A stretch of 64,000 nt of DNA from Phyto melanocephala (lineage: Eukaryota; Arthropoda; Insecta; Diptera; Rhinophoridae), in the NCBI GenBank assembly GCA_941918925.1, contig OW799233.1:179459235-179523234 (forward strand), written 5' to 3'. The position numbers were made by a program, and so were the translations under genes. The notes beneath the pieces are model-generated. The model ran no database searches and had not been told where the DNA came from. It saw nothing but the letters and a program-made list of their open reading frames with translations. Below, piece by piece: positions 887 to 32,500 of the stretch (its first letter is position 1; every line of letters begins with the position of its first letter).

Positions 887-1111
887 TAAATAAATAAGAA
901 GTAAAACATTTGTTCTCATAAAGTTTCCATTCCCCTTGAAAATTTAAAAATTAGTATGATAAATTTCCCTTGAAATTATTTTACCTTCATTAAAGAGCTG
1001 TTCAAAATAAAGTAAACTGTCAATGCTCATTGAATGTAAATAAAAAAAAAAGAAGGGAAATTTATTCTCGATTGATATTTTATATAACAAAAAAAATAAT
1101 TACTTTTTCAG

Positions 1112-3436
1112 ATAATGCTGTTGATATTCGAAAAGACGGTAAGTGAGCCAAATTTCGCACCTACTTATGCAAAATTCTCGAAAGTTTTATTCGAAGAAGT
1201 CAAAACAGAAAACAAAAAAATTTTCAATGCTTTGTTAATAAGCAGATTACAAACTGAATTCGAATCGAACGTAAACAATGCAGATGCAAAAGAGCGAACA
1301 TTACAACAAATTACAAATAAATTAAATGAAACAACGGACCAACAGGAAAAAATTGAATTACAATCTGAACTAGAGCATCAAGAATATCAATTTCGAAGAC
1401 GTGCCTGGGGAACCGTACGTTTTATCGGTGAAATGTATAAATTGCAATCTCTTACAACCACCCAGGTGGTAAAATGTATTGAATCTTTACTTGATCACGG
1501 CAATGAAGAGAAATTGGAGTACATGTGCAAGTTATTAACGACTGTTGGTAACCTCTTGGAAAGCAGTAGTTCTGAATTACCAAACACTAAGCAGAAAATT
1601 AATAAAGTATTTGCACGAATACAAAATATTGTAAAGGAGGCCAAGGAGTCATCTAAAAAGAAAATCAAAATCTGCAGTCGTGTACGTTTTATGATGCAAG
1701 ACTTAATCGATTTAAGATCGAGAAATTGGGATCAATTACCTTATCCTCATAGTAGTCACGCAGCACTGCGTCGACGACAGCCTGAAGATAGAAACAGCAA
1801 CGTATCATCTGCCTCCTTAAATACCCATGATAGAGGGTATAATAATCGTACATTGTTTGGTAATAATCGGCAAAATCAAACACGCACGAAAGACTCTGGA
1901 AATGGTAATTATTTTGTGCAGAAACCTCCCAAATCCCAATATTTGGGACAACGAGAACACCACAGTATAGACTTGAAAAAATTAAATTTTTCACGTCGTG
2001 ACGAATCTTCACAGGAAACAGAACTAGGAAATAAATCCATATATATGTGGCGTATTGTAGCTGGGCGGCAAACCTCACCAATGCGTGATTTGCAGCAAAG
2101 TGACCGAACTTCACCCTTGTCTGTTCAACTTAACATATCGCAACAATCACAGAACTGGGGTAATAAAAACCAGAATTTAGATTTAGATGTTAAAGCAATA
2201 TCTGACAACAGCAAACACATTCAGAGGCTACTCAATCATCTCTTAGAGGAGTATTTAGATTGTCTGCCATCGCGCAGCAACAGGTGGCAAGAAGAAGTAA
2301 TTAATATTTGGCAGAAGACTGACAATGACCAGCAAATATCTTTAGTATATTACATTTTGACGGACTATTTGCATTTAGCTGCCGTAAAACGCTTAGAACG
2401 AAATGCCTGCGCAAACATTTTCATTTACCTTATGTTGCGTAAAGAATTAAAAAAGTCAACATTTAGTAAAGCATACGAACAATTTGCCCATCAATTTCCT
2501 GATCTGTTGGTGGACGTACCCAATGGGTGGACATATGTTTTTGAGTTTATGGGATCTATATTGCACGAGGGTTTATTAGAATTCAGTGATATCTGGCACG
2601 ACAGCTGGTCCAGTGACAAACTGTTTACCGAGCGCTTTGTTAACGCTTTAGTTTTTTATTTCACCAAATACTTTGGCGCCAACTATATGCGGGACTTGTG
2701 GCATAATAAATTTAAACTTGGTAGAGGCCAACTATTTATAAGTGATCAACAACAATGGCGTCAATTTGTTGCGGCCAATAAATTACAATTTCTGTACGAT
2801 TCCAAGGTAAAGCCTGAAATCGTATCCACAAATGCCAACATCACAAACAACACCAACAGCAATGCAACAATAATGGATCAACATGTGCAGCGTTTAGAAA
2901 TACTTTTAAGTTCACCCAATGACTCAAATTTAGCATTAGATTATATTAACACCAATGTAAATATAAATAATTATTTTCTAAGAAACCTAACACGGCTGCT
3001 TTGCTGTGATTACCCTGCTATCATTACGATGAAAGCGGCAACATTTCGTACAGGTAGCAGAACAACCAGTAAAAACAGTAGTACCTGCAGTAATTCCAGC
3101 AGCAGTAGCGACATTGGAAATTTTATGGATAACAGCAACAACGCAAAGAAACCACAACTAAATGTTAATGAATTTCGCAAGAACTGCTTGCCATTACTGC
3201 GTTTATGTATCGATGCCCATGAAGATCACGAGCTGACTTGTCTCGACTCTGTAGTAAATACACTGCAAGAACAATACGATACAAACACCGCAAATGAATT
3301 AATTTGTAGCATTTTTGATATCCTTTACGATTGCGAGGTTATTGCTAAGGAAACTTTTGAAAAGTGGTATAAACAACAGCAAATAAAAAGGCCATTGAGT
3401 GCTCATTTGGAGGCCTACTTGCAAAAACTGCTTTAA
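1112..3436 (+). CDS. eIF4G: eIF4G-family translation initiation factor, C-terminal exon (partial)
   Basis: This is a scaffold protein of cap-dependent translation initiation; MIF4G binds eIF4A and eIF3, and the C-terminal HEAT domains bind eIF4A or Mnk-type partners. The exon opens right after a CAG acceptor (1110-1111), and codons ATA-ATG continue an upstream exon, so the ATG at 1115 is probably not the true start. Residues 1-206 are the back part of MIF4G (LIFEKTVSEPNF, then RRAWGTVRFIGEMYKL and VRFMMQDLIDLR). Residues ~207-360 are a polar linker. Residues ~363-500 are MA3 (HIQRLLNHLLEEYLDCL). Residues ~585-773 are a W2/eIF5C-like end (DILYDCEVIAKETFEKW). The frame is open for 773 codons to TAA. 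It is more divergent and more Asn/Ser-rich than a housekeeping eIF4G, so it may be the fly eIF4G2-type paralog. MIF4G type and W2 order argue against NAT1/DAP5, but I cannot exclude it. Confidence 0.9.
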   Translation: MMLLIFEKTVSEPNFAPTYAKFSKVLFEEVKTENKKIFNALLISRLQTEFESNVNNADAKERTLQQITNKLNETTDQQEKIELQSELEHQEYQFRRRAWGTVRFIGEMYKLQSLTTTQVVKCIESLLDHGNEEKLEYMCKLLTTVGNLLESSSSELPNTKQKINKVFARIQNIVKEAKESSKKKIKICSRVRFMMQDLIDLRSRNWDQLPYPHSSHAALRRRQPEDRNSNVSSASLNTHDRGYNNRTLFGNNRQNQTRTKDSGNGNYFVQKPPKSQYLGQREHHSIDLKKLNFSRRDESSQETELGNKSIYMWRIVAGRQTSPMRDLQQSDRTSPLSVQLNISQQSQNWGNKNQNLDLDVKAISDNSKHIQRLLNHLLEEYLDCLPSRSNRWQEEVINIWQKTDNDQQISLVYYILTDYLHLAAVKRLERNACANIFIYLMLRKELKKSTFSKAYEQFAHQFPDLLVDVPNGWTYVFEFMGSILHEGLLEFSDIWHDSWSSDKLFTERFVNALVFYFTKYFGANYMRDLWHNKFKLGRGQLFISDQQQWRQFVAANKLQFLYDSKVKPEIVSTNANITNNTNSNATIMDQHVQRLEILLSSPNDSNLALDYINTNVNINNYFLRNLTRLLCCDYPAIITMKAATFRTGSRTTSKNSSTCSNSSSSSDIGNFMDNSNNAKKPQLNVNEFRKNCLPLLRLCIDAHEDHELTCLDSVVNTLQEQYDTNTANELICSIFDILYDCEVIAKETFEKWYKQQQIKRPLSAHLEAYLQKLL

Positions 3437-3735: not shown

Positions 3736-4420
3736 TAATTATAAATTAATCATTCCAGCGAACTTAAACAAATTTCAAAACAAATTTTGTAAAAAATATT
3801 TATTAAACTCTATTTAAAAAAATACAATTTCTAATTGTATTGTTTAATTCTAAAAACAGCTATCAAAATGTACTGTATTTTTAAAATGTCATCAACGTTA
3901 GGTTATTGTAGTTTTCGTTTCAAATTGTTTTAACAAGTCTTTTCTGTGATTTTTTTATTTTAGTTTTTAGCAGCATTAAAATGAAACAAGATATACTCTA
4001 ATATATTAACTCATTAAATTTTCGTTTCACTGTTAATTCTTAAGACGTTCTGTCTAAAAAAAATAAAAAAAAAAAATCATTCATATACCAAGATCCGTTA
4101 AATTCTCTTTATTTTCTTAAGGTTGGGTCTTATTTTTAAAGTCTTTATAAAATTGAAATATGTATTTGTAAAGATTTTTATTTTATTTTTTATTTTAATA
4201 CTAAAACCTTTTAGTACAAAACACTACATACTACTATAAATTGAATAAAACATAATATTCTTTTCGTTTACAGCAGTCATTTTTATTTTTATTATTTTTT
4301 TTATTATAATTAGTTAAAACGTTGAACGATATCGATAAATAAAAGAAAATTAAAAAATAATAATAATAATAGTTAATGAAATGAAAAAATAGTATTACAA
4401 AAATATCTAACTCGCCCATT

Positions 4421-4546
4421 CTGTTCTGCATTCCGAGTGAAAAAAAAACACTCGGAATTGACATGAAATTGTTGTTATAAACAATAACACTGCAATGGCA
4501 ATTCCGAGTGATTTAATTTCACTCGGAATACAGAACACAGGCGATT
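4421..4546. repeat. Nested-palindrome foldback element, copy 1
   Basis: The outer arms run from TTCTGCATTCCGAGTGA to its complement ending GAACACAGGCGA. Each arm holds a second palindrome, ATTCCGAGTG...CACTCGGAAT. Two more copies lie at 28316-28443 and 28824-28933. No ORF and no transposase are present, so this is probably a non-autonomous foldback repeat. Confidence 0.8.
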
Positions 4547-4818
4547 ATTTATTTATTACACAAAAAAGGCTTAAAATATTAAATAAATATTTAGAAGAAA
4601 AAAAAAAATAAAAACAGATTTTTTGTAAAAATCTTTAAATAATTAAATTTATTTTATACTTAAATAAGTTTCAAGTCAAAATTAAAAAAAAAAATAGTAA
4701 TAATAATCAATGAATAAAAATAATTATAAAATATAAATTATAAGTTTGATAAACACTGTAAATTATTTTGTAAAAAAGACGTTGATAACATGAATGCAAA
4801 AACATAATAAAAGTAGAA

Positions 4819-5010
4819 GATAAAAGAAGTCCAAATAAGATATCAATTGGCCAAAAAGATTTGTTTCTTGGCTAATTCGACCATAGTTCCAACACGAGGG
4901 TTTATTATGTCATTCGCGACTTTTTCAGCTGCTGCTTTCATGTTGTCGGTCATCCTCCATTCACGTAAATCCATTTATTCGAACCATGCCTCTGAATCAA
5001 ATCTGCTGGG
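4819..5010 (-). repeat. Left arm of the viral-relic inverted repeat
   Basis: This arm is the near-exact reverse complement of 6146-6338 (shared stretches include TTTATTATGTCATTCGCGAC and GCTGCTGCTTTCATGTTGTC). It encodes the N-protein tail on the - strand. The arms stop matching at 5010/6146, where GATTTG.CTGGG ends. Confidence 0.9.
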
Positions 5011-5466
5011 TTCATCAGAATCCATAAGAGCAGGATTGAATTCTCCAAGTTCGCCTTCGTCATCATCCTCATCTTGTTGTTGGTTTTGGTTGCGTCCATT
5101 TTGGGTTTGCATTGGTCCGGTCCACCCTTTTTTTGACATGTTCCGAGATCTCGTAAAAACATAACCAACCCAGTGGCCGTTGATTAAGACGTTGCGTAAT
5201 CTTTCTCTAGCGTTTGAACCATGCCTCCGAATCAAATCTGCTGGATTCATCAGAATCCATTAGAGCAGGATCGAATTCTCCAAGTTCGCCTTCGTCATCA
5301 TCTTTATCTTGTTGTTGGTTTTGGTTGCGTCCATTTTGTTGATTTTGATTTGCGTTTGCATTGGTCCGGTCCACCCTCCTTTTGACATGTTCCGAGACCT
5401 CGTAAAAACATAACCAACCCAGTAGCCGTTGATTAAGACTTTGCGTACATCTTTCTCTAGCGTTTG
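4981..5466 (-). repeat. Tandem duplication inside the viral relic
   Basis: Two adjacent units, 4981-5215 and 5216-5466, both run from GAACCATGCCTC to TCTCTAGCGTTT. The second has about 16 extra bases near 5339-5354. They differ at scattered sites, so the duplication is not brand new. Confidence 0.85.
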
Positions 5467-6145
5467 AATCTAGCGTTTTGTGAGCGGGTATTACTAAAGT
5501 ATAATCCAATGAAATGTCAGAAGGTATAAATTCCTGAATTTTCTCTGGATGAGTAAGCACTCCTTGGAGTTAAGCACAAGTTAATCTGATACGGAAAATA
5601 AGACGATGACAGATTGTATTCTTCTTTGAAATTGAATATAGAAGACAGTTCATTTATTAAAGTCGGGCAAGCACTTCGTGCGTCAGACCCATTAGGGTGC
5701 TAGCATGACCAACTGAAAGTAGAGATGCACAATCCTTATATCTAGAACTTACTGCTGCAACTCTAACATTCGACCATGGCGCGGTGTCAAAATGGTAGAA
5801 GTACATGTCGATTGCTGCTACCATTTTCCGATAATCCGGGTTTTGAGTCCACCTCTTACATTTTGTTACACCCACACTTAAATTGCAGTGGTCCGGTCCA
5901 CCCTCCTCTTTTATCACCTGAGTGTCATTAGAGATCAGTTGGCTTCGGTAAGCGGGGTCGGAAGCTCTTTCTCTGTCTATGCATAGCACCCATATTGATA
6001 GCCATTTGTCGTCAGCTTCGGTCGCCGCAGATTCACCTCCTGAACCTGGTGTTTCGTCCAATTCTACTACATTAAGGATATCGAATGGAGATATCTCGGT
6101 ATCTTTAAGTCCTATGGTCAAGTTATAGGATTTTCAATCATCTTA

Positions 6146-6365
6146 CCCAGCAGATTGGATTTGAAGGCATGGTTCGAATTCATGAATTTACGTGAATCGA
6201 AGATAACCGACAACATGAAAGCAGCAGCTGAAAAAGTCGCGAATGACATAATAAACCCTCGTGTTGAAACTATGGCCGTATTAGCTAAGAAACAATTTTT
6301 TTTTTGCCAATTGATATCTTATTTTGGCTTCTTTTATTTTCAACTTTAAAAAAAAAAAAAAAAAA
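6146..6365 (+). repeat. Right arm of the viral-relic inverted repeat with poly(A)
   Basis: This sense-strand copy of the N-protein tail has an open frame at 6155-6349. Its non-coding end runs directly into an 18-base A run (6348-6365). The poly(A) is on the strand expected for a reverse-transcribed mRNA 3' end. Confidence 0.85.
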
Positions 6366-7435
6366 TAATAAAAAATAATTATAAAAATTAACTTTTAAAG
6401 TATTAGGTGCTAAGAAATATTAAAAAATAAATAAACTGACTTTATCCACATAGTTGGAATAAACAATAAAAAGGTGTAAGAAATTAAAAAAACACACACA
6501 CAGCAAAAAACAAAAATAATTAAAATGTCTAACTTTTTTTGATTTCGGGAATTACCACCAAATCCATTGGATGTTTTGGTCAATATTTTAATAAAATAAT
6601 TTTACTTTTGTCTTTAATAAAGTAGTTTATTTGGATTTTTCGTTACATCGGCGGCATTAACAATCAAATCATAGAATTTAATACCGCTTTTAACAACTAT
6701 TAAAAAAACGCTCCTATATTTTTATTTTTACTTGATGACAAGTATAATAAAAAAGTAGCTGAAACGGCAAACGTTGTTTTGCCATATAAATTTTTCTAGG
6801 AAATATTTTTTACATTAAAGAAAACATAAACCATATATGTTTTACGGTGCGCAGATCTGTTTTAGTTTAAAATTTCGTCGAAGTCGTTACGTTATTTAGG
6901 TGAGGCATAAATTGTCCCTTGGGGTGAGTCACTCTAAATATTAAGGGGTATGAAAAATAGATGTTGGCCGATTCTTAAACGTTTATTTTTATTTTCTGCA
7001 TTGGCTGGACTGTAATTTGTGTACAGTTAGAAGGAAAATACTAAACACTATATCGATGCAAGTACATAATTAAAAAAGTGGGCATTAAGGGCCGAATTTA
7101 ACGACGCCAAAATATTTAAAATAAAATGGTGCGTTTGTTTCAAAGAGTACAGAATTATTTAAAATTTCCCATAACTACATACATACATATATAAAACAAC
7201 TTACCGCAGTGCTCCTCCTTTACAAACTAACTTTATCTGTTTCATATTTTGTTGGACAACTTCTTATGTATTTGTTGGTTTGATTGTTTATAACCCATTA
7301 AAAACAACGGTAAGGATACACTTAAACAGGTGGCGGTGCCAGCCCAGCTGATAATTTTTTTTTGTGTGCCATTGTTTGTCAAACTCCATATATAAAAAAA
7401 TAAATTTTAGTGCCAAGAATTGTTAAACTTCATAT
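6366..7435. other. Spacer without a recognisable gene
   Basis: AT-rich intergenic sequence between the viral relic and the dispersed repeat at 7436. I see no long frame, no RNA gene and no clear repeat. Confidence 0.5.
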
Positions 7436-11056: not shown

Positions 11057-11530
11057 CTATGGAATGTGTTTGCTATTCCTAGATGGCTTTGGTGGAGGTG
11101 TTGGCGGTTTTTTTTTGTCATCTAAAGCTGTCGTTGTTATAATGAAATTTTTCGCCTCAACATATTCGTACGATGTGTTGACAAAACTGTTCGTAGTGCA
11201 ACAGGAGGTTGTCCTTGTAATCGTGCCAGTTGGACTCTGTGGACCGCCCAGTAAAAATGAACCGTTATTCCAATCCAAACTGTAGTTGAGACTAGAAAAA
11301 TCAGTCGAGTCTCGTGTTTTGGCAGGCAGTGGTGGTGGTATTAGGTCTTCTTCCGATGTAGAATCGGTGGTATCAACTGAATTGCGATTGCTACTATCAG
11401 CACCCGATAGCGATTGTGTATCGGCTACTGAAAAGCCCTTCATGCTGGCCGTGGGTGTTGCTATACTAGCCGGTCTTGACAAACGTCTCTCCTTCTCCTT
11501 TTCTGACCGTAATGGCCGTTTGGGTGTAAG
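11057..11530 (-). CDS. mbc: mbc last coding exon with Crk-binding proline motifs
   Basis: It begins LTPKRPLRSEKEKERRLSRP after a TTATAG acceptor. It contains EEDLIPPPLPAK and ends DDKKKPPTPPPKPSR...HIP before TAG (11057-11059). The PxxPxK-type motifs match the Crk SH3 ligands at the end of DOCK1-type proteins. The + strand frames here are shadows. Confidence 0.94.
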   Translation of the reverse strand, partial: LTPKRPLRSEKEKERRLSRPASIATPTASMKGFSVADTQSLSGADSSNRNSVDTTDSTSEEDLIPPPLPAKTRDSTDFSSLNYSLDWNNGSFLLGGPQSPTGTITRTTSCCTTNSFVNTSYEYVEAKNFIITTTALDDKKKPPTPPPKPSRNSKHIP

Positions 11531-14500: not shown

Positions 14501-17500
14501 CATATAAAATATTAGAAAAAAGAAATGTGTATCGTTAAAATATTTTTCAAATAGTTTTATTATGCTTTGAAATAAATGTTAAACCTACCTTGGATTAAAT
14601 GCAAAACCGAATGTTGATTTTATGGAATTCGTTTGTGGTCTCATCGAAGAGGTTGATTTTGATAGTCCGCTACTGCAATGAGTATTTTAAAAATGAAAAA
14701 ATATACAAAATGGCATCTCACATGTGTACGATAAACTTACTCTGATGAGCCCATGCTGGTTTCGGACAGGCGATTGTTGTTGTCGAACATGTTGGGTAAA
14801 AATGAATTGTTGCGACGCATTATTACTGAATCTCTATCAATTTTTAAATCGCAAGACTACAAAGACAACAAGAAGAGTTAATAATTTAGGTCTTAGAAGA
14901 ACAACAGAAATTTTCTTTGATACAAACTTACTTTTTTCCCATATTTAGCTTCAACATTTGCCTGCATGTCGGCGAAACAATTTTCCATGCGTTCATGGAA
15001 AAGTTTTAAGCTTTCTGGAGCTTTTTGTTTATGCAAAGAAATGGCTGTAACGTTAAAGAAGAAAATACACAAAATGATCACAACAATCGAATTTATTGCA
15101 ACATTAGTTTTAGCTTTTACATACCAATATCCAATAAGGGTATTTGTGATGCTATTAAATCTTTCAACTCATCTATCAAATCCTTGTGATTTGGATGTTC
15201 ATCCAAATAGTCGGTGGTGAGAAAGGCATCTTCATATTTACTGAAACCGCCCATGACTGCTGGATCTACGATACCATTGATTTTCATGCTCAACTGGTTG
15301 ATGGGTAAATTATCATCGTTTTTATGAGCAATAATTAAATCTCTGATATCCTTATTGGTAGATTTCATTGTTTCCACCGCCAACTCAATGGGAGTAATCT
15401 GAGGGGGAAAACAAAAAAAAAAACAAAATAATTAAAACTTTCAGTTGTTGTAAAAATATTAGAGGTATTCCCGTCACGCCGGTCTAAGTCTTTTGCAATA
15501 ACTAAATGCAAGCCTAACAATCATTTCGCACTAACTTTTACTTATTGCCTTATGTCTAATCTAAAGCGTAAATTGACTTTGTTCTCTTGTTGTCAAATTC
15601 CGTTTCGTTAAAAATGATGCTCTCTTCAATAGTAACTTAACGCAAGACTAAAACCGGTAGCGTGAACACCTTTATTGTGTGTATCAACTTACCTTAAACG
15701 TATGCGAATCTATTAAGGGGAACCATCTTAGTATACCCGGCAAGGGGAACTGAGTTGTCAACACGGTACGCTCCAACCACAAATTTCTTACGCCATCCGA
15801 ATCGCCACTGGTGCTCTCACGATATGGTCGTGAGTATTTAAACTTTTGTACATTGTTGTTGGTGAAATACTTAATTATTTCATTTGATATGATTTTATTA
15901 TTGAACTTGGCACACGACTCATCCATAATGGGCTCCACTTTATTTATTTGTATATACTGACCCTCGCCTTGTGTTATATCCTCTCCGGGCATTTCCAAGG
16001 TATGCATTAGTTCCGCTTGGGGATGTTGCACCAGTATGCGAGTGCTAAAATCACTCAATCTTTCATATTCCTTGCCACGATATATATAGGCGCGATTTTG
16101 TAAAAATCTGGGAAAGCCCAGACCGTAAAAGCAGACACGAAAATATTCCGAAGTGTGTCTTAGTTCCTTCAATATCTTCTCATAGAATAGAGCCATTTTC
16201 TTGAGCAAATCGGCCAATTTGATGTAATCATAAATTTCATTCTCATATTGTTGCACCAAGACCTTGCACATATCGATGGCACATTCCCACATTTTGCCCT
16301 TGTCAAAGTAGTCGATGACCTCAAAGTATAAAGCTTCCTTTAACTCCCGATGAGTACGACATTGCACGTGACGATGGGACCTTAGCAGCGGTGATAGTTC
16401 CGTGTCATTCCAACACAGTAGTTCGGTATGTAGTTTTAAAGTGAAGGCGGCTTCAGTGTAATTATCAAATTCCATATGCAAGTCACACAATTTATAAACA
16501 TAACGAATGTACATTTCTTTGCGATTTACCTCGGAATAGAACTGCAGCAGAGAGAAGGTGCAGGCCATGCGATTTTCCTTGCTTTCATCTTGTATAATGC
16601 AACGGTATTCCAACAAACGATCCATTAGTTTGGTAACCATGTTTACGAACTTGGTGCCTTCGATATGAAGGATATTGTGAGCACTACATTTTTCCAATAG
16701 AATTTCGGCAAATAGTTCTTTGTACTCCACATCTCCTTTGCCGGTTCCAATTAGAATATCAAGTTTCTCTATCATTTCGGTTTCAAAGTCATTAAAGTTG
16801 GCCTTATAGTGCGCATTGTTGCGTTTGGTATCACCATAGCTGTCGTCAATTAGCTTTGAACTATAGTATTCACATTGCATCATATCGAAAAAGATCGGTA
16901 TGGTGGCCTTTCGCAGTTCCACTTCGGGTATCATACTCATTTCCAAGATCGGCTCTACCAATTGAGGCACAAATTTCGGTTTGTACTCACCCAATTGGAA
17001 CCACATTTTACGTATCTCTTGAGCCGTATCCTTGCGGATGTCACGATAACGTGCAAAAATCACCTGGCGCTTATTGTCATTAAAGTCGTTTAGCTGCAGC
17101 GGAGACTGTATCAGAAAAGCAATCGAACACTGAAAGAAATTCGACCAAACTTGCTTCTCGAACGGATCGAAGAAATGATCGACAATCACTATGGACAAAT
17201 GTTGCAGGGAGCCAAGAATAACAGTGTTCTGGTGCATTATCATATCCATCCAATCGCGAGGAAATACGGTCTTTTGGTGTGGCGAGACCAACTCTTCAAA
17301 GACCAGCAATATTTCAATGATAAAATCTTGCAGTTCAAAGCGATTATTTAAATGTTTAACGAAAATCTCATAATGCAAAGCATCCATACGTTGGAGTATG
17401 CCCAACATAATGGCTACCAAATTACCAACTAATTGATTTTCGCGATCCAGAGCCTGTGACGTCTTTATAACGGTTCGCAATAAAATAAGCATTATATCAC

Positions 17501-20500
17501 GCACATCGTTGTGCGTCTGACCGATGTCTGTGCGGTAGAGAAGTTTAAGAATGTTGTTCATAATTCTTATACATTCTGTGACCTGGTGTACGATGGAAGG
17601 TAAAGAGTTGCAAAGAAAGTAGAAATATGTTAATAATTTTGCCATTTCTATGTTAATACAATAAAAGAGAGATAAGTTAACGATTCAACAGAAATAAAAA
17701 CCCGAATTTAGTTGTATCCTAATTGGCGGTGTTTAGAAAGTCTGCATTTAAAAAATTTTCAACCAGGCGAAGAACTAGTGAAATATACAATAATAGAAAG
17801 TATGGTGTAACTAAACTAATTAATACAATTAGAATTTAAATATTAGGAAGAGGACTTAAAATGCCACGTATTAAATCTCTTCTAATATGGACAAATAAAT
17901 GTAAAGGTATGTCTGCATTGCATCACGGCAATTAGGATTAAACATTTTTTATGCAAGAATTAGGAAGTGCTGCTTCAAGTTTGTTTACCCAGTTTATCTT
18001 TTAATTTTTTATTGTAAAAGTTTGCAGTGCATTGATTATAGTTGGTGGTAATACGACAACATGGTTTTTTATTGTTGCTTAAGTTAGCCTCTTTGGGATG
18101 AGTGGCTATGAGAATAAACTTAATTACCCTATAGTGTGTAATGCAAATTTTGGATAGCCGCGTTCGTAGTTTTTTAAAAACGACACCAAGTACCACACAT
18201 CGAATATTAACAAGTAAAAGTGCAATATCCGGCCAGGCTGAATCTAAAAATAAAATGTATAATGACCACATCGTAGCTTAGCCTTGTTTTTAGATTTCAT
18301 GTTAAACGCCATTTTCTTTACTAAATCCGACGCCATCTTTGATTTTGAAACTTTACAATGGTAACTGTATTCTACTAGTCAAGAAACCCTATCATTTGAT
18401 ACCCATATTGATAGGGTTAAAAAAAATCCGCCATTTTCTTTCTGACGCCATCTTGGATTTACCATTTTTAATAGTTTACTGTATTCTACTGATTAAACCA
18501 TTTTATTTGATACCAATATTGTGGGTGTTAAAGGGGACAAAGTCGTTGCTACTATATTTGACTTATATATTGGTTATTGATTCTAGGACACCATCTTGGA
18601 TTTTTAATCTCTCTGTATTAACTTTTGTTAACTGCATTTTACTGACCAAGTCCATACCCAAGTTAATACCCCCATATTGACTCTATGGGTGGAATATAAA
18701 TTGAAAAAAAAATCGATTTTCGTTTGTGAATTTTTGGAAAATCCCCAAAGCAGTTGTATTTTGGTGCTTATATCTCAGTTAGTTTAAAGCCGATTTATTA
18801 GCTATTCTTATAAATAATACGGCTACGACTTATAATTTTCTGTGTTTAACGTGTCCAAAAGTTATTTAGGAGCTTAAAAAATTTGATATATTCACAAAAA
18901 TATATATTTTTTTAAATCATTTTTGCCTATAACTTTATCGGTTAGTAATCAATTATTCCAAAAATTTTCACAGATATATTTAGAGGCACATAAGCGTAAA
19001 TATAGTAATAATAGTAAAAATAAAGGGGAAAAACCCCGAAGCAGTCGTGTGTATTTGCTCATATCTCAGAAAGTTATTGGGCTATTATGCTGATTTTCAA
19101 TACCGGTCTGCTCCCAAATATTTCTAAAATTTTTGATTTCAACATACACAGGGACAATGCTCAATAGACTCCCTTATTCATATGCTTTCACAAATTTATA
19201 CTTTATAGAAATTGTAGAAATTTCCCACGGAATTACAAATCTATTTATACCCTCCCTTACACTCATTGTGAAGGGTATAAAAAGGCCATTTTGCATGAAC
19301 GGTTTGCAGGTTGTTTCTTTTGCAAAGATGACGTAATTTTTTTAACCAAACCGTTCTTGTAAATTATTGACACTGGATGATAATACTAAAACTATATTGT
19401 GTCAAAAAAAAAAATAAATAAATACAGAACAACAGGAGTAATACAGGTGCCAGTTTCACACCAAATGTACTATATTTCCACAATCAATTACTCTTTAAAA
19501 ATAAAATGGACAGCATCTGGGTACCCTGCTTGCTACCCGCCTAAGAGTCAATACCTCATACTAAGATTACTATATTTCAACATCGGCCTGTTCATATTGG
19601 AAAATAGTTTAAACAAAATTAAATTCGAGTTTTGGGTTTTTTCTCTTGAATCGTTTATATTTTTAAACTTAAACTACAATTTTAACCTGGAAAAAAAATA
19701 TAGATAAAATAATTTTGTAGAAATTATAGCACATAAGATAATCATAAAATTATAATACCTAAAAATCCTGCTTAATGCTTTTCTTTTTCAAATTCATGGT
19801 GTAATAAGAAAGCTAAGCTTAAAGCAATTAATTATAAATAAAAATAATTAACAGTATTGGGTTGTGGTTAAAAATATAAGAGAAAAAAAAAATAGTGAAA
19901 ACACAAAAGTATTTAATTAATAAGATAATCCATCTAATAAGACAAAAATGTATTGCATTTATTAACAAATTAAAACTCAATTATAAATACGATAGAATGT
20001 AGGTTTTGGTTTTTTTTTCTGCTAAATAGTGTAGTGGACAAAAACTATAAATTTACAAATAATTTGTTTACGTTTCTGTACTTGTAAGGCAAATCTTATA
20101 CACTGAATTAATTAATAAATTATAATTAAAAAGTATAAGGGCTATTATTACAACTTGTCTTTAGTTAAAGGTAGGATTTTTTGTAAATAGCTTCGCATTA
20201 TTACAACTTCCATTTTTTATTGTAATTATTGATAAAAATAATATTTAATAGATAAAAAAATAATAAATTAAGGCTTTATAACGCAAAGCCATTTATCGGT
20301 CCGATAAAATCCTGCCTTTAACTAACGGCAAGTTTTAATAATGGCCCTAAATATGGCAAAGGTTACTTTAAATATATGGCACTCGTTCAACAATACTGTA
20401 TTAACTCAAAATTTTTTATTTTATCTTTTTGGCAAAAAGCAATACATAACGCTTATGTCTACCTATGGTTAACAATTCCAATAGTTCTGACTACTCTTTC

Positions 20501-23500
20501 TTAATTAAATTACATGTTGTGACCTTTTTCTTGCGGAAATCGGTTATTTCTGTGAATCAAGAAAACAAAATTATTTTGAGTTGTTTGCAGTATTGGCCTT
20601 AGCAAATAATTATTTTTTCGTATAAAGAGTCACGTAAAAAAACACAGCTCAAAATATTTACTTCTTATAAACAAAAATAATTCAAGAAAATGATAGTAAC
20701 TAAAAAATCCCTTTTTTATCTGCAGAGAATGAACAAATAATAAAAAGTTAATGCAGCGCAATACAATAATTGATGGGTTTTCTAAATATTGCCAAACTTT
20801 TGCAAATGAAAACTGTCTTAAGCATTGAGAAAAAAATTTTTTGTCTCTCCTGAAAACTTTGAGCTTTTTGAGTTAATACAGTATTGTTGAACGAGTGCGA
20901 TATGTGTAATCGAGAACCTACATTAAAAACTGCTAATTTACGTCTAGCTTTATGTTATTCCTAAGCTAATTCGAATACGTACGGAATTAAAAACAATGGT
21001 TATTAAAGTCTTGAATTTATCTTAGAAAAAGACTGAGTTTGGAGAAATTTTGCATCACATAGTTGCAGAAAATCTGCAAATTTTATATTTTTTAATTTTA
21101 CAAATTTTTCCCATAACACTTTTGTAGTATTATAAGATACTTTTGGAATCTTTGACGACTTATTTTGTTGTTTTAATTTGTTATTATATATTCTGCAGAG
21201 TTTTGTATATTTACTTCTCGAGACTTCAAAATCACATTATGATTAAAGCACATAAGACTAGATTGACTTATCCATTCATTACACTGGTTTACAGCCAAAA
21301 AATACCAAGAACGCCACATGCCTAGATAAGTTAATTGGGACCTCCTGAACACGAAAAACGTTGTAATATTTTTTTTCTAAGTACCGTTTTTTAGATAACG
21401 GTACTTTTGTGTTTTTCGGTGTATGGTCCCACTCAAACCCTTGTGGAGCCCAACCGAAAAGTCTGACCGAGATAAATGGCATATCGTTAGAAAGGTAATT
21501 GAATGCCTTTTCCGTCGATATGCTAAAATTTTTCATTTTTACTTCGTTTTTTTTTCTACGTTATAGTAAAGATCTGGAATGTTTTATTTTTTTACCAAAT
21601 AGCTTATTTAATTACCAACATTTTAAGCGTAATTTGAAAAAAAATTTTGTGGAACGACAATATTTTCATCTTCATTGCTCACACACTATATTCCGCGTAA
21701 ATTAAAAAAATTAAATTAAAATTCCAAAAACTGATGGACGCCGAATATATGTAGTGTGTGAGCAATGGAGATGAAAATATTGTCGTTCCACAAAATTTTT
21801 TTTCAAATTACGCTTAAAATGTTGGTAATTAAATAAGCTATTTGGTAAAAAAAATAAAACATTCCAGATCTTTACTATAACGTAGAAAAAAAACGAAGTA
21901 AAAATGAAAAATTTTGAAAAAAACGTAAAAAATAGGCAAATTTTGAACTTTGAAGTGCCATAACTCAGCCATTTCTTATCAGATAGAAATTTGCAGCATA
22001 TTGACGGAAAAGGCATTCAACTCTAATCCGGCTGTTCATTCCAGATTTCTTCTTTGTTTTTTTTTTAAATTTCCTATGGAATAGTTTTACTTTTTAAATA
22101 CTTAAAAAGTATATTATGAAAACTAGAACTGATAGAGACAAACTGATTACAGATTTGAATTCAGCGCACCCAAATTAACTAGAATCCGTTTTTTTTTTAA
22201 TTTTGTCGGGCTGTATAATCATAACAGCGGAATCTAATTACGATTAATATTTTAGGGAAAATTTCAAATATTTTGAGGGGAAAAATTATCACAATATGAG
22301 TGTTTATATTTTGTTCTTTCTGCATTATTGTTATACGTTTGTGATAAACGTATAATATTTACAAATCATATCTATGTTGGTGTAGGAGACAATTATATCA
22401 AATAAATAGAAAATATTTAATTTTACAGAACATTTGTTTTCCACATAAGTGTGTGTAAATGAATAAATTCGAATAATTTATGCCAGTATTTAACGGACTT
22501 TTCAAATTAATGAATTTAAGATTCGATATTGTTTTGAGTTTAACGATGTTTGTTTATATCCTTAATAATGAGAAATTTCGCCTAACGATTTGTGTTTACC
22601 TTTTGTTTTGCTGTTGTTTCACGTGTGTGCAGTTGAGATTTTAATTGTCCAAGAACTTTAGCTGCTTTCGAAAGATTTTTTTCTTGTTGCCATATATCAG
22701 ATTTCGAGTCACCCTAATCAAAGTGGTTGTTTGATTTTTTGTTTGTTTCGATATGAAATATGGTATTAATTTTTAAACAAAACGAAAAACAATTTTTTTT
22801 TTTTTTTTAATTTTAATTGTGAATAACAAAAACAAAAAAGTTGTCAATGTAAATGAGGGTAGAAAAGTTGGTGGTTTTCATTTAAAATGAAACATAAGAC
22901 TAATATGATTAAAAAAAAATTATAATCATTTAAAAAGATGTGCTCAAAATGATAATGAATACCAAAAGTTAAAAAAAGTTCATAATTAGCAACAACAAAA
23001 CAAAAAAAAAATTAAATCAAAAGACACAAATAAGAGGAAAAGAAAACTATTAAAATATTGATTTTTGTTGTGGTCTAGTGAGCACATTCAAATAATGGTG
23101 TAAGTGAAAGATAATGGTGATGAATTGTGGCAAGATCACAAGTACAATGAAAACGCATTTTTAATGTGATTAAAACAAAAGGTGAGGTAAGTTTTGTAAA
23201 TGTATGTTTATTAATCTTTCCTAAGTACATAACATTAATAACAAATAATTAATTTCAAATAGGTTATGAATAAGTGTGTAAATGGGTGATGAAAGAACAA
23301 GTGCATGAAATTGCAATTATGTATTATGAAAGTGAATAGGCTAAAATTTTACACAAAAAAATATATTTTAATGAATTTATTACATAATTTTTTTTTTATT
23401 GAAATGACTAAAACAAACAATGAATACGGAATATATGTAAATGAATGAATAAAAATAAATTTGGAAGCTCCTAAGAAAACAGCGTGCATACACTAGCTAA

Positions 23501-26500
23501 ATAATATTCTGTCACTAAGTCTATAACTAAACATATATTTAAATAATAAATTCTATAAAAAATAAAATATTTATAAATACATGTACATACGAGCATGTAA
23601 GTATGTTGATAAAATAAATAAAATTGCGTTTGCATTGAGCAATTTTTTTTTTGGAAAATGTCTTACCCCAAATTCTTATAAAATGAAGTATATTACGTTT
23701 GAAATTTTCTATTCAAAACAATTAAAAAAAAAATTAAAAAAATAAATAAAAAAAATTAAGAAAAATTTTTTTTTAAAAAATTGAAAAAAAATATTAAGAA
23801 AAAATAAAAAATATAAATATATAAAATAAAACAATAATGTTTTTGGCTCAGCTGGGATGCGATGCCACGTTTATTCTAACCAATATATATGTATGTTGTT
23901 GTTGTAATTGTAAAAAAAAGGAGGTGGTCGTGGTTTTTTGCTCTTATCTCAGAAAGTTATGGGGCGATTGTGCTGAATTTCAATAGCGATTCATTCACGG
24001 ATATTTCCAAAAGATTGATACCATACTCAGATCTGAGGAACATATAGTTGCTTCTAAAAGTTGATTTCAACCAACACACGAACAGACGGTCAGAGCTTAA
24101 TCGACTCCTCTATTCATAAGCTTTCAGAAAATATATACTTTATGGGGTCGGAAATGAAAATTGTAGAAATTACAAACGGAGTGACAAAGCTATATATACC
24201 CTTATGCACCACAGGTGAAGGGTATAAAAAGAATAAAGAAAAAATATAATATCTTTTGAAGAAGAATATGTTTACATTTTTTAAAATCGCTTGTAAATGA
24301 TCCAAAATATCGGATTCCCAAAAATATTTTGATATTAAAAAAAAAACACTTTCAGTAGATAATACCCTAAAACAAATTAAGGCACCTATTACTTGTATCG
24401 TAGAAGATATGAATTATGTATAAAAGAAATGGAAAAAATCAGTGGAGCTATATAACTGAACAAATCTGGCATACCAATATGGATACAACGGAGATCTGGA
24501 TTAATGAAAATCCTTTGAAGGAATAATCGGATTTTGTGTTGTCTCTTTTGGTTTTACCATTTTCAGACGCTGAAGTGTAGCGTTTATTTAGTTTAATGGG
24601 CTTAATAAAAAGCAAACTTAGAACAAAAATGAACACACAACTTTTATGTTCTGTTATACGTATAAAGGAAAGCGTAAAACTAAATAACGTATGTTGCTTT
24701 AACATCAATATATCGGACGATGTTTTGATAAAAATTGGTTTATCTGAAAAATACCAAAAAGAATTGGTATGTGAAGAAAATTATATGATTGAACTTGTTA
24801 TCCTTCTTACCACATTTGATTAATTGTTGACACTTCTTTTGTGTAAATATAATATTAATAAAATTGAATTGAATTAAACAAAATATGTATATAAATATCT
24901 TGCAAATTATTATATTAAAAAAGTTTCAAAAAAAAAAAACAATATTGCAAAATTTTAGCACTTTTCTTTTTAAACTGTAGAACTTTTAAGCACTTTTTTT
25001 TTGAGTTTTTGCACTTTTTCTCTACCATCTTATGGCAACACTGGTTAATTGGTTAAATTAAGACGTTACATAATCATAATACCATAGCCATAAGAAACCA
25101 AAATTCAATTGGTTCCTATGATTATGGCTATGGAATTATGGCGAGTTACCTATAATCAAATACACTGTTATTAAACAGCTGTTTTGTATGGTTATGGCAC
25201 ATCTAATTTAACCATTTACTATTAAGAACGACATTACCACTTTGTAGGTTTCTAGGGGAAATCTTAAGAAAAGTGGGCATGGCCGCTTATATGTTATCGC
25301 ATTAAATTTAACTCCTTTAAAAATATTAACAACGTTCTTAATTATAATATTTACTTTATTTTCTTTTCATTTTCAACAACTGAACTTTAAATTAACAAAT
25401 ACCTGTTATTTTCGACCACAAAAGTAATCAAAACATATGTTCAACTATGTAATTAATGGTCCGTTATTATGTAAGTATGTATATAAACAACAACAAAGAT
25501 CTTAACTAAGTAATTATATGCATTCTGTTTATTTACATTAAAATAAAATGTATGTATTTGTAAACGGACAAGACCCTAAAAAAAAGTAAGAAAGAATTTG
25601 CAGCAACAACAATTACGCAATTTGAAAAAGGTATACTTAAGGATAGCCAAGAAAATAATCATATTAATATAAAGAAAATTAATTAAATAATAAAAATAAT
25701 TTTGATTGTTAATATTATTTAAATGCCATCCGACAAACATATGTGAATGCAGTGACTGTTCGACGGGTTTCGCAATTTTATATTTGTTGTATTCGTAATT
25801 ACCCACACAAATTCTATATAGACAAAACACTGCAAATGTGGGCGTGGTATCTTCAATGAAGAAATTTAATTTTTAATACAATTGCTGAATGTAAGTATGT
25901 AAGGGCTATCATTTGATAACTTCTCAATCTATTTCTCTCATACTTTTTGTGTTCTTTTTTTTTTTTTACAAATTTTGTATAAAAAAAATTAAAAATTGGG
26001 TGTGGCATTCCGAATTCAAAGAAAATATAGCAGAATGCTTGTAAGAGCGTCATTAATTCGACAGATTTCGCTGATTATTTTTGGGTTGTAGTTGCAACTA
26101 TCAGAACTAGGCTTTATTGGAAAAAAAAACGCTATATCTAATCTGAATTTATTAATACCCTTTACCTTCATGTTCATAAGTATAATGACCACATCGTAGT
26201 TATCCTAGATTATATATATATTTATATACCCTTTTCTTTAATAATTCCGACGCCATCTAGTCAAGTCATATCATTTGATACCCATATTGGCTCTTTGAGT
26301 GGTATAGAAAATAATAAAAAAAAAAAAAAATTCGTTAAAAAAATTTTAGGAAAAATATTTAAATGCACCTTGAATTGTGATTTAAAATTTATTTTTTTTT
26401 TCATACAAAAATATTATAAAAACAAGTAAGAGCGCTATATTCGGCCGTGCCGAATCTTATGTACCCTTCACAACGTGTAGTCATGCAATAACAGTAGTTT

Positions 26501-29500
26501 GTATCACCATTCATCCCATATGAAATATAAAAAACATACATCTATAAAAACATCCAATTGTAAAATTATAAATTTACGTATGTATGTTAAAAAAAAAAAT
26601 AAAAAAAAAATTAAAAAAAAAATTTAAAAAAAAATTTAAAAAAAATAATTAAAATATATATAATAAATATAAAAAAGAAAAAAAAATAATATATATATAA
26701 ATAATATATTAAATAAAAAATAAAAAAAATTAAAAAATAAATATAAAAAAAAATAAAAAAAAATTTTTTTGGCTCATCTGGGATTCAATGCCACGTTTTC
26801 TCTAACCAGTATACACGTTTGTATGCATGTTGTTGTTGTAATGTTGTTTTTGTGAAAAAAATCGAGGTGGACGTGGGTTTTTGCTTATATCTCAGTTGTT
26901 TATGTACCGATGTTTCCGATTTTCAATACCGATCTACTCCCGAATATTTCTGATATTTTAATACCTCACCCGGGTCCAAGCGATGTCGGGGGGCTTCAAG
27001 AAGTTGACTTCAACATACACACGGACAGACTGACAGAGCTTAATCGACTTCCCTATTCATAAGCTTTTTAGAAAATATATACTTTATGGGGTCGGAAATG
27101 AAAATTGTAGAAATTTCACACGGAATGACAAAGCTATATATACCCCAATTCACTGTGTGAAGGGTATAATAAAAATAATTATTAATTTCCTGATGACGCT
27201 TCACAACGGAGTAGAGAAATATTGGGACAACTAATAAAAATCAAAAACATTATTTTTATTAAAATAAGACGTTAAGCTAAAATTATTTGTAAATTGAATT
27301 TTTATTTTTGTGTTAATATTTACATAAAAAAATATGAAGTATGAAAAATACTAAAATCTATCTCCTAATGTGAAGAATACAAGAACGTTGTGGGGGCCAG
27401 CCAAGCGGTCCGGCTGCAGCTGTAGTATTCAATAAAAATGTGTCTTCCCTACAAAATGATGTCAGATAATGAAAGTAGCAAATCGCCAATAATCAAGTTA
27501 AAAATTCTTAACAAAATTTTTAAATTTAATGCAAGTGCAAACAAGGATATTTATTTGACATTATTAAATCATAGGGCTTAAAACTACCCACTTGACCTAA
27601 GTTACGAGAAGCTTAGAAAAAGTGAACGTTCATAGCATCTTAGTATTTTGTTGTTTTACACAAAATAATGCTAAGCAGGCAACGTCATCACAAGACGGCT
27701 AGTGGCTATTGAATAATTGTCGAAGTTATATGTATCAAAGTAGTAACAAAGTGATGCTTACTCAAAAACGTCAATGACATTGACATGATTTAATTGTGGC
27801 GAATATTCGAAATCGAAGGATTTGCTGCCACAAACTAGACGACAGTTGAGATCTAGTAGCTCGTTCTCGTGTCGCCTTTGAGTGCCATCAAAACACTTTG
27901 ATACCGATTTCTTTGCCGTAGGTTGTGGTCAAGTGGGTAAAGTTAGCAAAAACTATTATAAACTTCTATATTAATTTAACCCAAAAAAGAGTTTATAAGT
28001 CCATGTTCTCTAAAACCTTATAATAGTTAAAGTAAATTAAAGGAAAATAGACTACTTTACATTTTCATAGAATTTTTTAATTGCAATAAAAGAATAGAAT
28101 TTTTTTTTTTCATAAAAATTATTTCTTCATTAAATATTTCATTTCGAAATCGAAGAAAGGGAGTATTGCTAACAGCTGAACCTAAACAAGAGCGGCAAGC
28201 ATTTTTTAGCTTTTAAAATTTATCATGCCCATACATGAAGCAAACTGGAATACCATGGCAGCAACGCATGCTTTTCTTTTGATTTTTAAGTTGGCTGCAA
28301 AACAAAATGCTATTCGCCTGTGTTCTGTATTTCAAGTGAAATTAAATTACTCGGAATAGCCATTGAAGTGTTATTGTTTATAACAACAATTTCATGGCAA
28401 TTCCGAGTAATTGAAATTAACTGGGAATGCAGAACACAGGCGATGGTTTTTTTTTTACTTTTGCAATTGTTGCGATTTTCAGGTCAATCTAAGGATTTTT
28501 TGTTTTTTAGTGGGTTTAATTAAACGACATTAATAAATGTTACTGTTCATTATGCAATGTTTGAACTCTTGTTTAGGTTTGTCACGCTATCGTTAGCTCT
28601 CAACACAACGCTTGCAGCTATTGCTTAGGTTTGACTATAAGGGTGTTAAGCACATTGCAAGAAATTACTTAAAACTCAGCAGAGCAATAATGAATGTTCG
28701 TTAAATAATAAAGATGTTCACGTCAACAATTTTAAAGAGTTAATAATATATCCTTAATTATGCAAGTACTATTTTTAAACAAAAGATGATCCACAATGCA
28801 AAAAAAAAAAACAACAGTACATCTGTGTTCTGCATTCCGAGTGAAATTAAATTACTCGGAATAGCCATTGAAGTGTTATTGTTATTGGCAATTCCGAGTG
28901 ATTTAATTTCACTCGGAATGCCGAACACAGGCGATTATTTTTTTTACTTTTGCAATTGTTGCGATCTGAGGATTTTTTGTTATTTAATGGGTTTAATTAA
29001 ACGACATTAGTAAACATTACTGTTCATTACGCAATGTTTGAACTCTTGTTTAGGTTTGTCACGCTATCGTTAGCTCTCAACACAACGCTTCCAGCTCTTG
29101 CTTAGGTTTGACTATAAGGGTGTAAAGCACATTGCAAGAAATAACTTAAATCTCAGCACATAATGAATGTTCGTTAAATAATAAAGATGTTCATGCCATA
29201 AATTTTAAAGAGTTAATCATATATCCTTCATCATGCAAGTACTATTTTTAAACAAAAGATGATCCACAATGCAAAAAAAAAACAATAGTACATTTGAGGT
29301 ATTTTTGATTTCAGAAAATACATAAGATTCTTACTTACCTTTTTTTGTAGACTTTACATTATATTTAAAATATTTGCACTTAATAACAAAAATGTTTTAA
29401 AGACTGGCAATAAATTTAAATTGACGTTAAATATATGTTTTGCACAAAGTTTTGCAATTGGTTAATGATAGTTTAAGAAGCAACAGTTGGCCATTTTTGC

Positions 29501-32500
29501 AAGACCAAAATTTATGACATGAACACCTTTATTGTTTACGTATTTTGTAAAACATAAAATAAACATAAGACATATAAAACATACAGTAAATGTACACAGA
29601 CAATATTGATGGTATAAATAAAAAACATAAACGGAACATGCTTAATATTCTAATGGATATAAACATAACACTGGGCATGCTCAAATTAATTAAAAAAAAT
29701 TACAAATAATGGAACTAGCAAATAAGGATAACATTAAAAAAATAACTTAAGTTTGCTGCTATATTGAAAATAACATTGTTGGCTTTAAAATTTTACTTCA
29801 ACATAAATTTTTTGAGTTTAAAATAGTTCTGTCATCACTTTTAAATTAAATCCAGTTTTACAAAACTAATCGCAAAACTACGTCATGTTTAGTACCTAAA
29901 CATTAAACATGAACTCTTGAATTTTATTACAATTTTAAAATTATAACAAAACTGGCAATTTCCAGATGAGTATTTTTAAATTGCCTGTTTTTTCTTTATC
30001 ACTAAGATAATGAGTTACGAAATTTTGAATTTATACTTTTAAAGTTTTCGAAAAAAACAATAGTATGCACTTTGGCCAATCAATTCGAATAAATTTGCTT
30101 ATATTTATTGTCCTTTAATTAAGAATAGAGTCAGTGAAATAATGTGGACATGATAGTAAATTCAAAAAAAAGATCAGTACAGAGAGAAAATCATTCATGA
30201 AGTTAACATTTCTGTGTAAATGTTTAATTAATAATGAATTAGTTTGAATGTATTTTGTTTAATTTAATTTGTTTAATTAGAAAAGTCCACAAAGCAAAAT
30301 TATTTGGTTAAGTGTTTAAAAGTAAAACTATTTCTTATGCTTTCTCAACTCATTGAGTAAATAATATTAGGCAACCATGCGTTTAATAAAATATTAAATT
30401 TTTAGTTGAATTTCATAAATGTTGTTTTAAAGAGCAATATGACAATGTTTTTCGAATATGGCAAACGTTAGCAAACAATTATTTTATTAATACAGAACGA
30501 AAACAAAAATATGTAAACAAAATAAACAAACAAAAAACAATACAATTATTTTCTATTCATTCTAAAACACTTACCTCCTCTTTACTTTCCAAGCGATCCT
30601 TGATATGATTGCAGAAGACGGGCAATAAAATAGCACGACATTCGGGTAAGTTAAATAATTTCGAATCTACAAAATCTTTAATGCAACCCATTTTCGATTG
30701 GGTTAAGCGACGAGGTGGAAATTGCTTTAAAATATTCACAATAACAATGCTGAAAATAAGTAAAAGGGAAATTTAAGAAATTTGAATAAGTGTACATACA
30801 TATATTTAAGTGTATAAAAAACTTTTATATAAAACGAATTTCAAGTTTAAATATTGTTGTTATAACTTGTATGTTTGGCTAGATCTACCTTAAGCGCACT
30901 GGATCAAACACCTGCATTAAATCGGTGGCTATAATGTGTAGATTTTTTAATAAAGCCCCTTCCGATTTCAATAGATCCGTGGGACAAGCAATCATTTTGA
31001 TAAACATTTCCAAAAGTTCTATAAAAACAATTAAATTTGAAATAAAATAATTTCAAATCTACATATTGTATTTAGTTTCAACTTACCATGCAATTTATTG
31101 GCAAAATCATCATAATCTGAATTATCATTGATAGCTGAGAATAGGATGCGTGATCGTATGATGAATTTCATAACATAGTGTAAATATCTAGTGGTCTTAT
31201 ACAGACGTTTAACCTCAGCGCGTTCATCAATTTCAATGCCATCTACTGATTTTTCTTTGGGTTCAATAGCATCTTTGATATTCTTTTGTAAAACATCGAT
31301 AAGTTTACTTTATGTTTAAATGAAAACAAATAATTAATAATTTGTTATACAATTATTTAAAAAATAAAATAAAAACCTACGCATAAGCCAAGGTAGCCGA
31401 GAAGCTTTCATTTATATAAACATCCAAAACTGTTAAAAAGTGTTGATACTTTAAGTCCGATACAGTTTCTATGAGATGTATAATGCTCATGAATACCAAT
31501 TGATCATATTTCTCGGGATCATCATTTTCTACTAAAATATTGAATAAAGCATCCAAAATGTCTTGCAGAAACTTAACAACCTCTTCGCCAGGTACATTGG
31601 ACAAGGCGTTCAATGATTCTTCCAAAGTTTCCTTGTGAGCCGACCAGTTAAGGAGACCCAACAGAATGACACTTTGTGTAAGCTTCGTACTACAAAGGTT
31701 AACACCTATGACAAGTTGGTCTTTGGGTAGCAACGACAGACCCGACACTGAAGGCTTACCTCCTTGCAGTTCACCTATAGTTGAAGGCAATTCCATATAT
31801 AAATTGTAGGAATTTGTTTTATCCAGTTTTTTATGATCAATTTTGTAGACGGCTAAATTATGTTGTCCTTGTGTTATGGTGGTACCATTATCTTGCATTA
31901 GCTTGACATAAGATAAACCAAAAGGCTTTTCGGCCTTATCCTTTTGTTCGTTAGAGCTACGATGTTTGAAAACGAATTTCAAATGGCACTGTTTGAATTC
32001 ATCTATAGGCACATGTATCTGAAAGAAGAAACATCAAATTATTTGATTTCTAAACTATTAATCTGCTGTTATATTAATACCTTAAAAGTTTCCAACCATT
32101 TAGGTTTGTCGTCATGGTAGTAAACTACAGACTTGTATTCATCTATGGGTGATAGACCAGAGCCAATGCTCATGACACCTGGCATCATTTGACCCTGTTC
32201 ATTGCATACTGTTATTGTGACTTCGACATTCTTTTCGGATGTCTTGGCAATACGTGCGAATTCTCCAGAGCACAAAGTTAAATACAAATCATTGCGCACA
32301 TCGCCGGGCAAAATTACTTCGGGGAAGCCCATTTTACGCGCTATCGGCACATTAGTATGCAATAGCCGTGGAAATTCTTCTTTTATCTGTTTAATGTCAC
32401 CCTGTAACACCTCTACCGTAACACACATGCGAGAATCTATTTTGCCTATATCCTTGTTAGCTATTAACTTTCTCAAGGTGCCATCTAAGCTATCCTTTTC

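Follow-up and report, generated by a model that had tools for sequence, protein, structure and literature searches.

A rhabdovirus nucleoprotein relic with an inverted 3′ end in the genome of the fly Phyto melanocephala

The nucleoprotein relic and its host neighbours

The window is the whole 64,000-nucleotide stretch of Phyto melanocephala DNA that was analysed, and positions below are positions in it unless another locus is named. The window contains a virus-derived insert at 4810-6365, and its candidate target-site duplication extends as far as 6373. The insert lies at C1:179.46 Mb of the 740-Mb genome between an eIF4G-like gene and a DOCK-family gene. The features are as follows.

1100-3436, plus strand: large 3′ ORF of the host eIF4G-like gene (MIF4G and MA3; W2 under the cut-off)
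4798-4812, no strand: candidate left target-site duplication, 15 bp, of which 14/15 match the right copy (9 exact, 4804-4812)
4810-6144, minus strand: antisense segment, N from about profile position 72-82 to the stop, with 3′UTR
4810-5011, minus strand (antisense): left inverted arm, the last ~55 N codons and a 33-nt 3′UTR (arm alignment)
4843-4974, minus strand: N C-terminus and stop, TGA at 4843-4845 (relatives L026, L028, L033 and L039)
4978-5218, minus strand: tandem unit 2, N C-terminal region (alignment to unit 1)
5213-5468, minus strand: tandem unit 1, N C-terminal region (alignment to unit 2)
5520-5696, minus strand: N continuation in a different frame (matches to N relics of the same genome)
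5660-6133, minus strand: N central domain, a 158-aa open frame with an in-frame TGA just before it (PF00945, solved N chains)
6145-6347, plus strand (sense): right inverted arm, the same N 3′ end (89% identity to the left arm)
6348-6365, plus strand: A18, taken as a remnant of the mRNA poly(A) tail (read from the sequence)
6359-6373, no strand: candidate right target-site duplication (9 exact at 6365-6373)
15687-33025, minus strand: exons of the host DOCK-family gene (PF16172, PF14429, PF23554, DHR-2 lobes)

The eIF4G-like and DOCK genes are the nearest recognised genes on each side and converge on the insert; their strands bear out the claim of the earlier note that N lies antisense to the eIF4G-family gene. 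The eIF4G-like ORF has 56 protein matches, the best at 66%, and its named close matches are all flies: Sarcophaga bullata (49%), Eurosta (42%) and Drosophila arizonae (52% over a third). It resembles the short fly eIF4G paralogues of ~800 aa, one of which has a testis role in Drosophila. On the other side, the ORFs at 11057-11530 and 33073-33417 may, by eye, also belong to the DOCK-family gene; no Pfam family was found in 11060-11530.

The 158-aa minus-strand frame at 5660-6133, which includes SRYKDCASLLSVGH, matches the Pfam family PF00945 (Rhabdo_ncap) over profile positions 82-235 of 410 with an E-value of 6.1e-30. Among solved structures, it matches the N chains of seven distinct sequences with E-values from 9.4e-18 to 1.3e-16, which we take from their entry codes to be vesiculovirus-type, and five further N-containing sequences, presumably rabies-type, with E-values from 5e-4 to 1.1e-3. 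The earlier note had described a broken N-protein-like sequence and proposed a protein-similarity search; both results confirm the description, and the resemblance is to the N of negative-strand viruses. A search of the genome itself with the PF00945 profile covered positions 72-235 at this locus, a span interrupted by one TGA and one TAA, and then positions 248-312, and the same profile found nothing in 14 control genomes.

Pfam recognised none of the 3′ N pieces of the window. Against solved structures, the C-terminal frames found no N chain, and the piece at 5520-5696 found N chains at an E-value of 0.64 at best, alongside unrelated chains. That piece resembles other N relics of this genome, namely L025-L028 and L032 (44-54%) as well as L039, and the piece at 4846-4974 resembles L026, L028, L033 and L039, the C-terminal matches being individually weak in a whole-genome search (E 0.003-0.05). 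Because both pieces match N relics of the same genome, the N gene is taken to extend to the stop at 4843-4845; since N begins near profile position 72-82, the 5′ end of the gene is absent. Judged by its sequence, 4810-6365 is a 5′-truncated, frame-broken rhabdovirus N gene, and the locus, set in a fly chromosome between host genes, is a non-retroviral endogenous viral element (EVE). The central N frame had no confirmed match in a viral contig collection (one pattern match was unconfirmed), and none of 30 candidates from a protein collection reached an E-value of 0.001 or less in a search that admitted only proteins of 0.55-1.75 times the query length and excluded full-length N. A placement of the relic in a genus was dropped, as no exogenous relative was matched and the solved N chains were the only bearing.

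Structure of the insert and its counterpart at L033

From left to right, the insert consists of antisense 3′UTR and N (4810-6144), the sense 3′ end of N (6145-6347) and A18 (6348-6365). The arms of ~190 bp made of the viral gene, as first described, are slightly longer: the alignment of 4810-5011 with 6145-6347 has 203 columns, one gap and substitutions at 21 of 202 sites (89% identity), a match within the locus that is far above chance (blastn 6e-74). Both arms end outward at one point, ...ACTTT, which we take to be the 3′ end of the N mRNA in the window. On the right, it is followed by A18, the run of 18 A that had been noticed at the end of the sense arm, whereas on the left host DNA follows directly without oligo-T. 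A18 stands directly after the 33-nt 3′UTR, as in a retroposed mRNA.

Inside the antisense part, two tandem units of 241 and 256 bp align over 256 columns with 13 substitutions and 15 gap positions. The earlier reading of the locus as an N relic built as an inverted repeat holds for the N identity, the arms and the eIF4G-family neighbour, but it had overlooked this tandem duplication and the likely origin of the insert. Because the arms and the tandem units have diverged (21/202 and 13/241 sites), an assembly error is set aside; with 9 contigs for 740 Mb, an artefact of that kind has a negligible probability. Divergence is lower between the tandem units than between the arms (K2P 0.056 versus 0.113, Fisher p 0.07), and thus the tandem duplication is probably the later event.

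A mid-N stretch at 5883-5910 recurs in another frame within each of the two tandem units, with 26/28 identical positions at 5356-5383 and 21/22 at 5107-5128 (repeat 5107-5134). Mid-N is its likely source because L031 has, by eye, a similar peptide there, and the recurrence looks like a patch that arose by template switching before the tandem duplication. In the host DNA to the left, 4422-4537 forms a MITE-like palindrome with 55-nt arms, 82% complementarity and a 6-nt loop.

The left host flank ends AAAAACATAATAAAA, of which the final AAA is common to the viral 3′ end; this 3-nt microhomology of the left junction with the target could easily occur by chance in A-rich DNA. The right flank, starting inside the A run, reads AAAAAAATAATAAAA. 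With boundaries that were chosen after viewing the sequence, ungapped tests of the flank repeats gave null fractions of 0.030-0.057 (4000 random flank pairs each), and the gapped score, with at most three tail As allowed, was reached by 15 of 1500 random flank pairs. As evidence of a target-site duplication, these repeats are suggestive, not strong.

Searches of the genome (740 Mb, 9 contigs) give locus counts that are lower bounds. PF00945 has at least 14 matches in nine loci, the window among them; the C-terminal frame added a tenth locus (L033, also numbered L010) and an eleventh (L039), for at least 11 N loci in total. The DNA of the window insert is single-copy, except that its right end and flank have three A-rich matches. 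Inverted copies around N were sought in all ten other loci (L025-L033 and L039) with the low-complexity filter on, and only L033, at C4:128.29 Mb, has inverted copies derived from the inserted gene. In L033, 98-bp arms at 2899-2996 and 3275-3372 of that locus enclose the antisense N C-terminus, whose last match is at 3008; the arms are 3′UTR by position, differ at 10/98 positions and score 132 bits, compared with a maximum of 47.3 in 30 block-shuffled controls. Both arms end outward at CATGAAAAAAA (CATGA7), a motif reported as a rhabdovirus termination site (PMC5904411). On the sense side of L033, A9 in all follows CATG, of which A7 is possibly templated, and T7 stands opposite on the other side. 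Its flanks, AAACAATT-AT-TTATT and AAACAATTTATATTATT, share 15 matches with two 1-base gaps, a score reached by 6/1500 random pairs. The window and L033 are 71% identical over 188 columns, while the arms within each insert are 89-90% identical and the two 3′UTRs look unlike. Since divergence between the inserts exceeds that between the arms within each, and the 3′UTRs are unlike, the two are regarded as separate events.

Of the 11 N loci, 2 have an inverted 3′ end, and both are among the 5 with a recognised 3′ end (the window, L026, L028, L033 and L039). L026 has one 3′ end only, with A16; the candidate target-site duplication of that locus was discarded, as it is a low-complexity A-rich repeat only. 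L028 has a 43-bp inverted pair that resembles transposon ends and flanks ~1.3 kb (4017-5359) between two N pieces, and L030 has a self-palindrome adjoining N and a 35-bp inverted pair; neither was accepted as a copy of an N 3′ end. Downstream in L028, CATGAAAAAAA marks the likely gene end. Self-palindromes near N also occur in L027, L028, L030, L031 and L033.

Four of the 11 N loci lie together with L-gene relics within 3 Mb at C4:35.36-38.26 Mb (L025, L026, L029, L031, L040 and L041), the L-gene relics being at 35.36 Mb (two adjacent equal-score copies, 2.1 kb apart) and at 36.37 Mb (near the cut-off). Frames resembling an LTR reverse transcriptase and a transposase were seen by eye beside L025 and L031. 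This region is possibly an EVE-rich small-RNA cluster. The N inserts of L025 (3011-4112) and L026 (2980-4021) lie 0.46 Mb from each other on C4 and share 86.9% identity over 1103 columns, and their flanks showed no match at an E-value of 1e-8. A rhabdovirus-like L gene is also present in three adjacent pieces at C2:22.39 Mb.

Routes to an inverted nucleoprotein insert

The insert was probably produced when N mRNA underwent LINE-type target-primed reverse transcription that started at both nicks of a single target site. In this mechanism, the LINE-type retrotransposon machinery of the host would have copied a polyadenylated N mRNA into a chromosome nick. Priming of the right-hand end in the poly(A) tail, with ~200 nt copied, would have given the sense arm and A18, and priming of the left-hand end at the last three U of the 3′UTR, with ~1.1 kb copied to about codon 80, would have given the antisense segment. 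Joining of the two cDNAs at 6144/6145 would then leave two oppositely oriented copies of the 3′ part of the gene, both with their 3′ ends outward. In L033, both cDNAs apparently began in the tail. Afterwards, ~240-256 bp were probably duplicated in tandem, and the whole insert decayed without visible constraint. We infer the enzyme, the use of one or two RNA templates and the order of these steps.

The order of the window segments, antisense from 3′UTR to 5′, sense to 3′UTR and then A18, matches that of 5′-inverted L1 inserts, in which an antisense 5′ segment is likewise joined to a tail-bearing sense 3′ segment. Priming from the second nick as well is the proposed source of inverted inserts (PMC2912911 and PMC4245944). 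The combination of outward-facing 3′ ends in an inverted repeat, a single poly(A) tail and near-duplicate flanks is what priming from both target nicks would leave, and the strongest support for it is that L033 independently has the same build. Against it, the duplication signal of the window is weak in AT-rich DNA, that of L033 requires its two gaps, and the build occurs in no more than the two N loci. The usual form of twin priming is further strained by the complete overlap of the sense segment (203 nt), which needs strand displacement or a second RNA: to copy the entire sense segment twice would take another RNA molecule or a trailing enzyme that displaced the leading cDNA. For L1, twin-primed inserts that carry a duplication where the inversion joins have been reported (PMC12350158). 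The left cDNA of the window begins in the last 3 nt of the 3′UTR rather than in the poly(A) tail, from which both cDNAs of a dual-primed insert would start, and the window insert is therefore not classed as dual-primed. Because 5′ inversions, in one cell-culture study, were found only with human L1 in human cells, bar one insert of a zebrafish LINE (PMC4245944), they would be unexpected of insect LINEs.

A plain insertion of N followed by an inverted duplication of its 3′ end, through DNA repair or replication slippage, is unlikely. The difference between tandem units and arms makes some later rearrangement of the locus probable anyway, but a chance inverted duplication would stop at any position, whereas the arms share their 3′ end point with only one of them tailed, and the coincidence of the outer ends occurs again in L033.

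Independent insertion of two oppositely oriented N mRNA copies at nearly one site could also account for two segments that stop at one 3′ end point. With L033 as the outgroup, the sense arm is assigned 11 of the changes between the arms and the antisense arm 3, with 7 unclear, which could mean that the segments have unlike histories. There is just one tail, however, with one pair of flanking near-duplicates and no target-like sequence between the segments, and the double event would be required twice in one genome; we consider this very unlikely.

A self-primed fold-back cDNA that copied its own 3′ end before the hairpin integrated would yield an inverted repeat with a long loop and predicts T7 and A9 at opposite ends, as in L033. 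Such a copy must complement its own start, yet the left arm of the window lacks oligo-T opposite A18, and this route seems highly improbable. Priming from both nicks remains our preferred reading.

Hairpin potential and known systems

The earlier note had claimed that RNA from the locus would fold into a hairpin with viral arms, and the predicted fold of the plus strand agrees, with 187/202 left-arm bases paired with the right arm. The hairpin-RNA (endo-siRNA) loci of Drosophila are inverted repeats able to form long dsRNA; the arms in the window can likewise form a long duplex, but they are decaying. A working hairpin-RNA locus that would feed the Dicer-2 or piRNA pathway against related rhabdoviruses, a kind of role that the earlier note had offered as inference, is quite improbable. 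In its favour, besides the extent of the predicted pairing, 41 of the 183 21-nt windows in the arms are perfectly paired, a 61-nt run free of differences has a permutation value of 0.006 (0.6% of 20000 permutations), and recognised host genes converge on the insert. Read-through transcription into it is possible. Against it, AATAAA sites precede the insert on both sides: 8 follow the stop of the eIF4G-like gene and 19 lie on the DOCK side, counted from 11056, many being expected in AT-rich DNA. The arm differences at codon positions 1-3 number 3, 7 and 7, without a third-position bias, and give no sign of protein-level selection; wobble-keeping changes (6 on either strand, of 21) are also without bias. 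The 61-nt run is the only finding that could point to constraint, and gene conversion could account for it as well. The insert probably has no present function, and a present small-RNA role is unlikely. That priming from both nicks recurrently fixes viral mRNA as ready-made hairpins, making antiviral hairpin-RNA loci in one step with the window and L033 as examples, would be a long shot.

The route by which RNA viruses that lack a reverse transcriptase reach insect genomes is not settled. The two independent fly inserts, which have tails, outward mRNA 3′ ends and apparent priming from both sides, provide evidence for a LINE-type route in an insect. They suggest that this mode of priming, best known from human L1, may convert a viral mRNA into an inverted repeat as it inserts; a small-RNA consequence thereby becomes testable. 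EVEs are already known, and so is both-sided priming; no earlier report of a twin- or dual-primed EVE was found in a literature search that covered mostly titles and the starts of abstracts, with few subscription papers and preprints.

A 2010 survey reports poly-A tails and target-site duplications in mammalian EVEs and none in insect EVEs (PMC2987831). As described there, LINE-mediated mammalian EVEs resemble the window insert in deriving from one RNA-virus mRNA with a 3′ tail and a candidate target-site duplication, whereas the window insert has a fly host and an inverted 3′ end. Twin-primed L1 inserts and retrocopies (PMC2912911 and PMC4245944) share with the window insert an antisense 5′ part, a sense 3′ part with a tail and microhomology at the 5′ junction, which in 5′-inverted L1s amounts to 2-5 bp in ~70% (PMC2912911). 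In contrast to them, the antisense part of the window reaches the 3′ end of the RNA, its sense segment is wholly duplicated and its template is viral. For primate L1 loci, “dual priming” from two RNAs was proposed by authors who could not separate it from twin priming (PMC2837659). Unlike the “dual priming” described there, 98 and 203 nt of unique 3′ sequence were copied from both sides in L033 and the window, respectively, and the left cDNA of the window starts just inside the 3′UTR, outside the tail. Like it, the inserts appear to hold cDNAs that start from RNA 3′ ends on both nicks, and L033 fits that proposal (PMC2837659).
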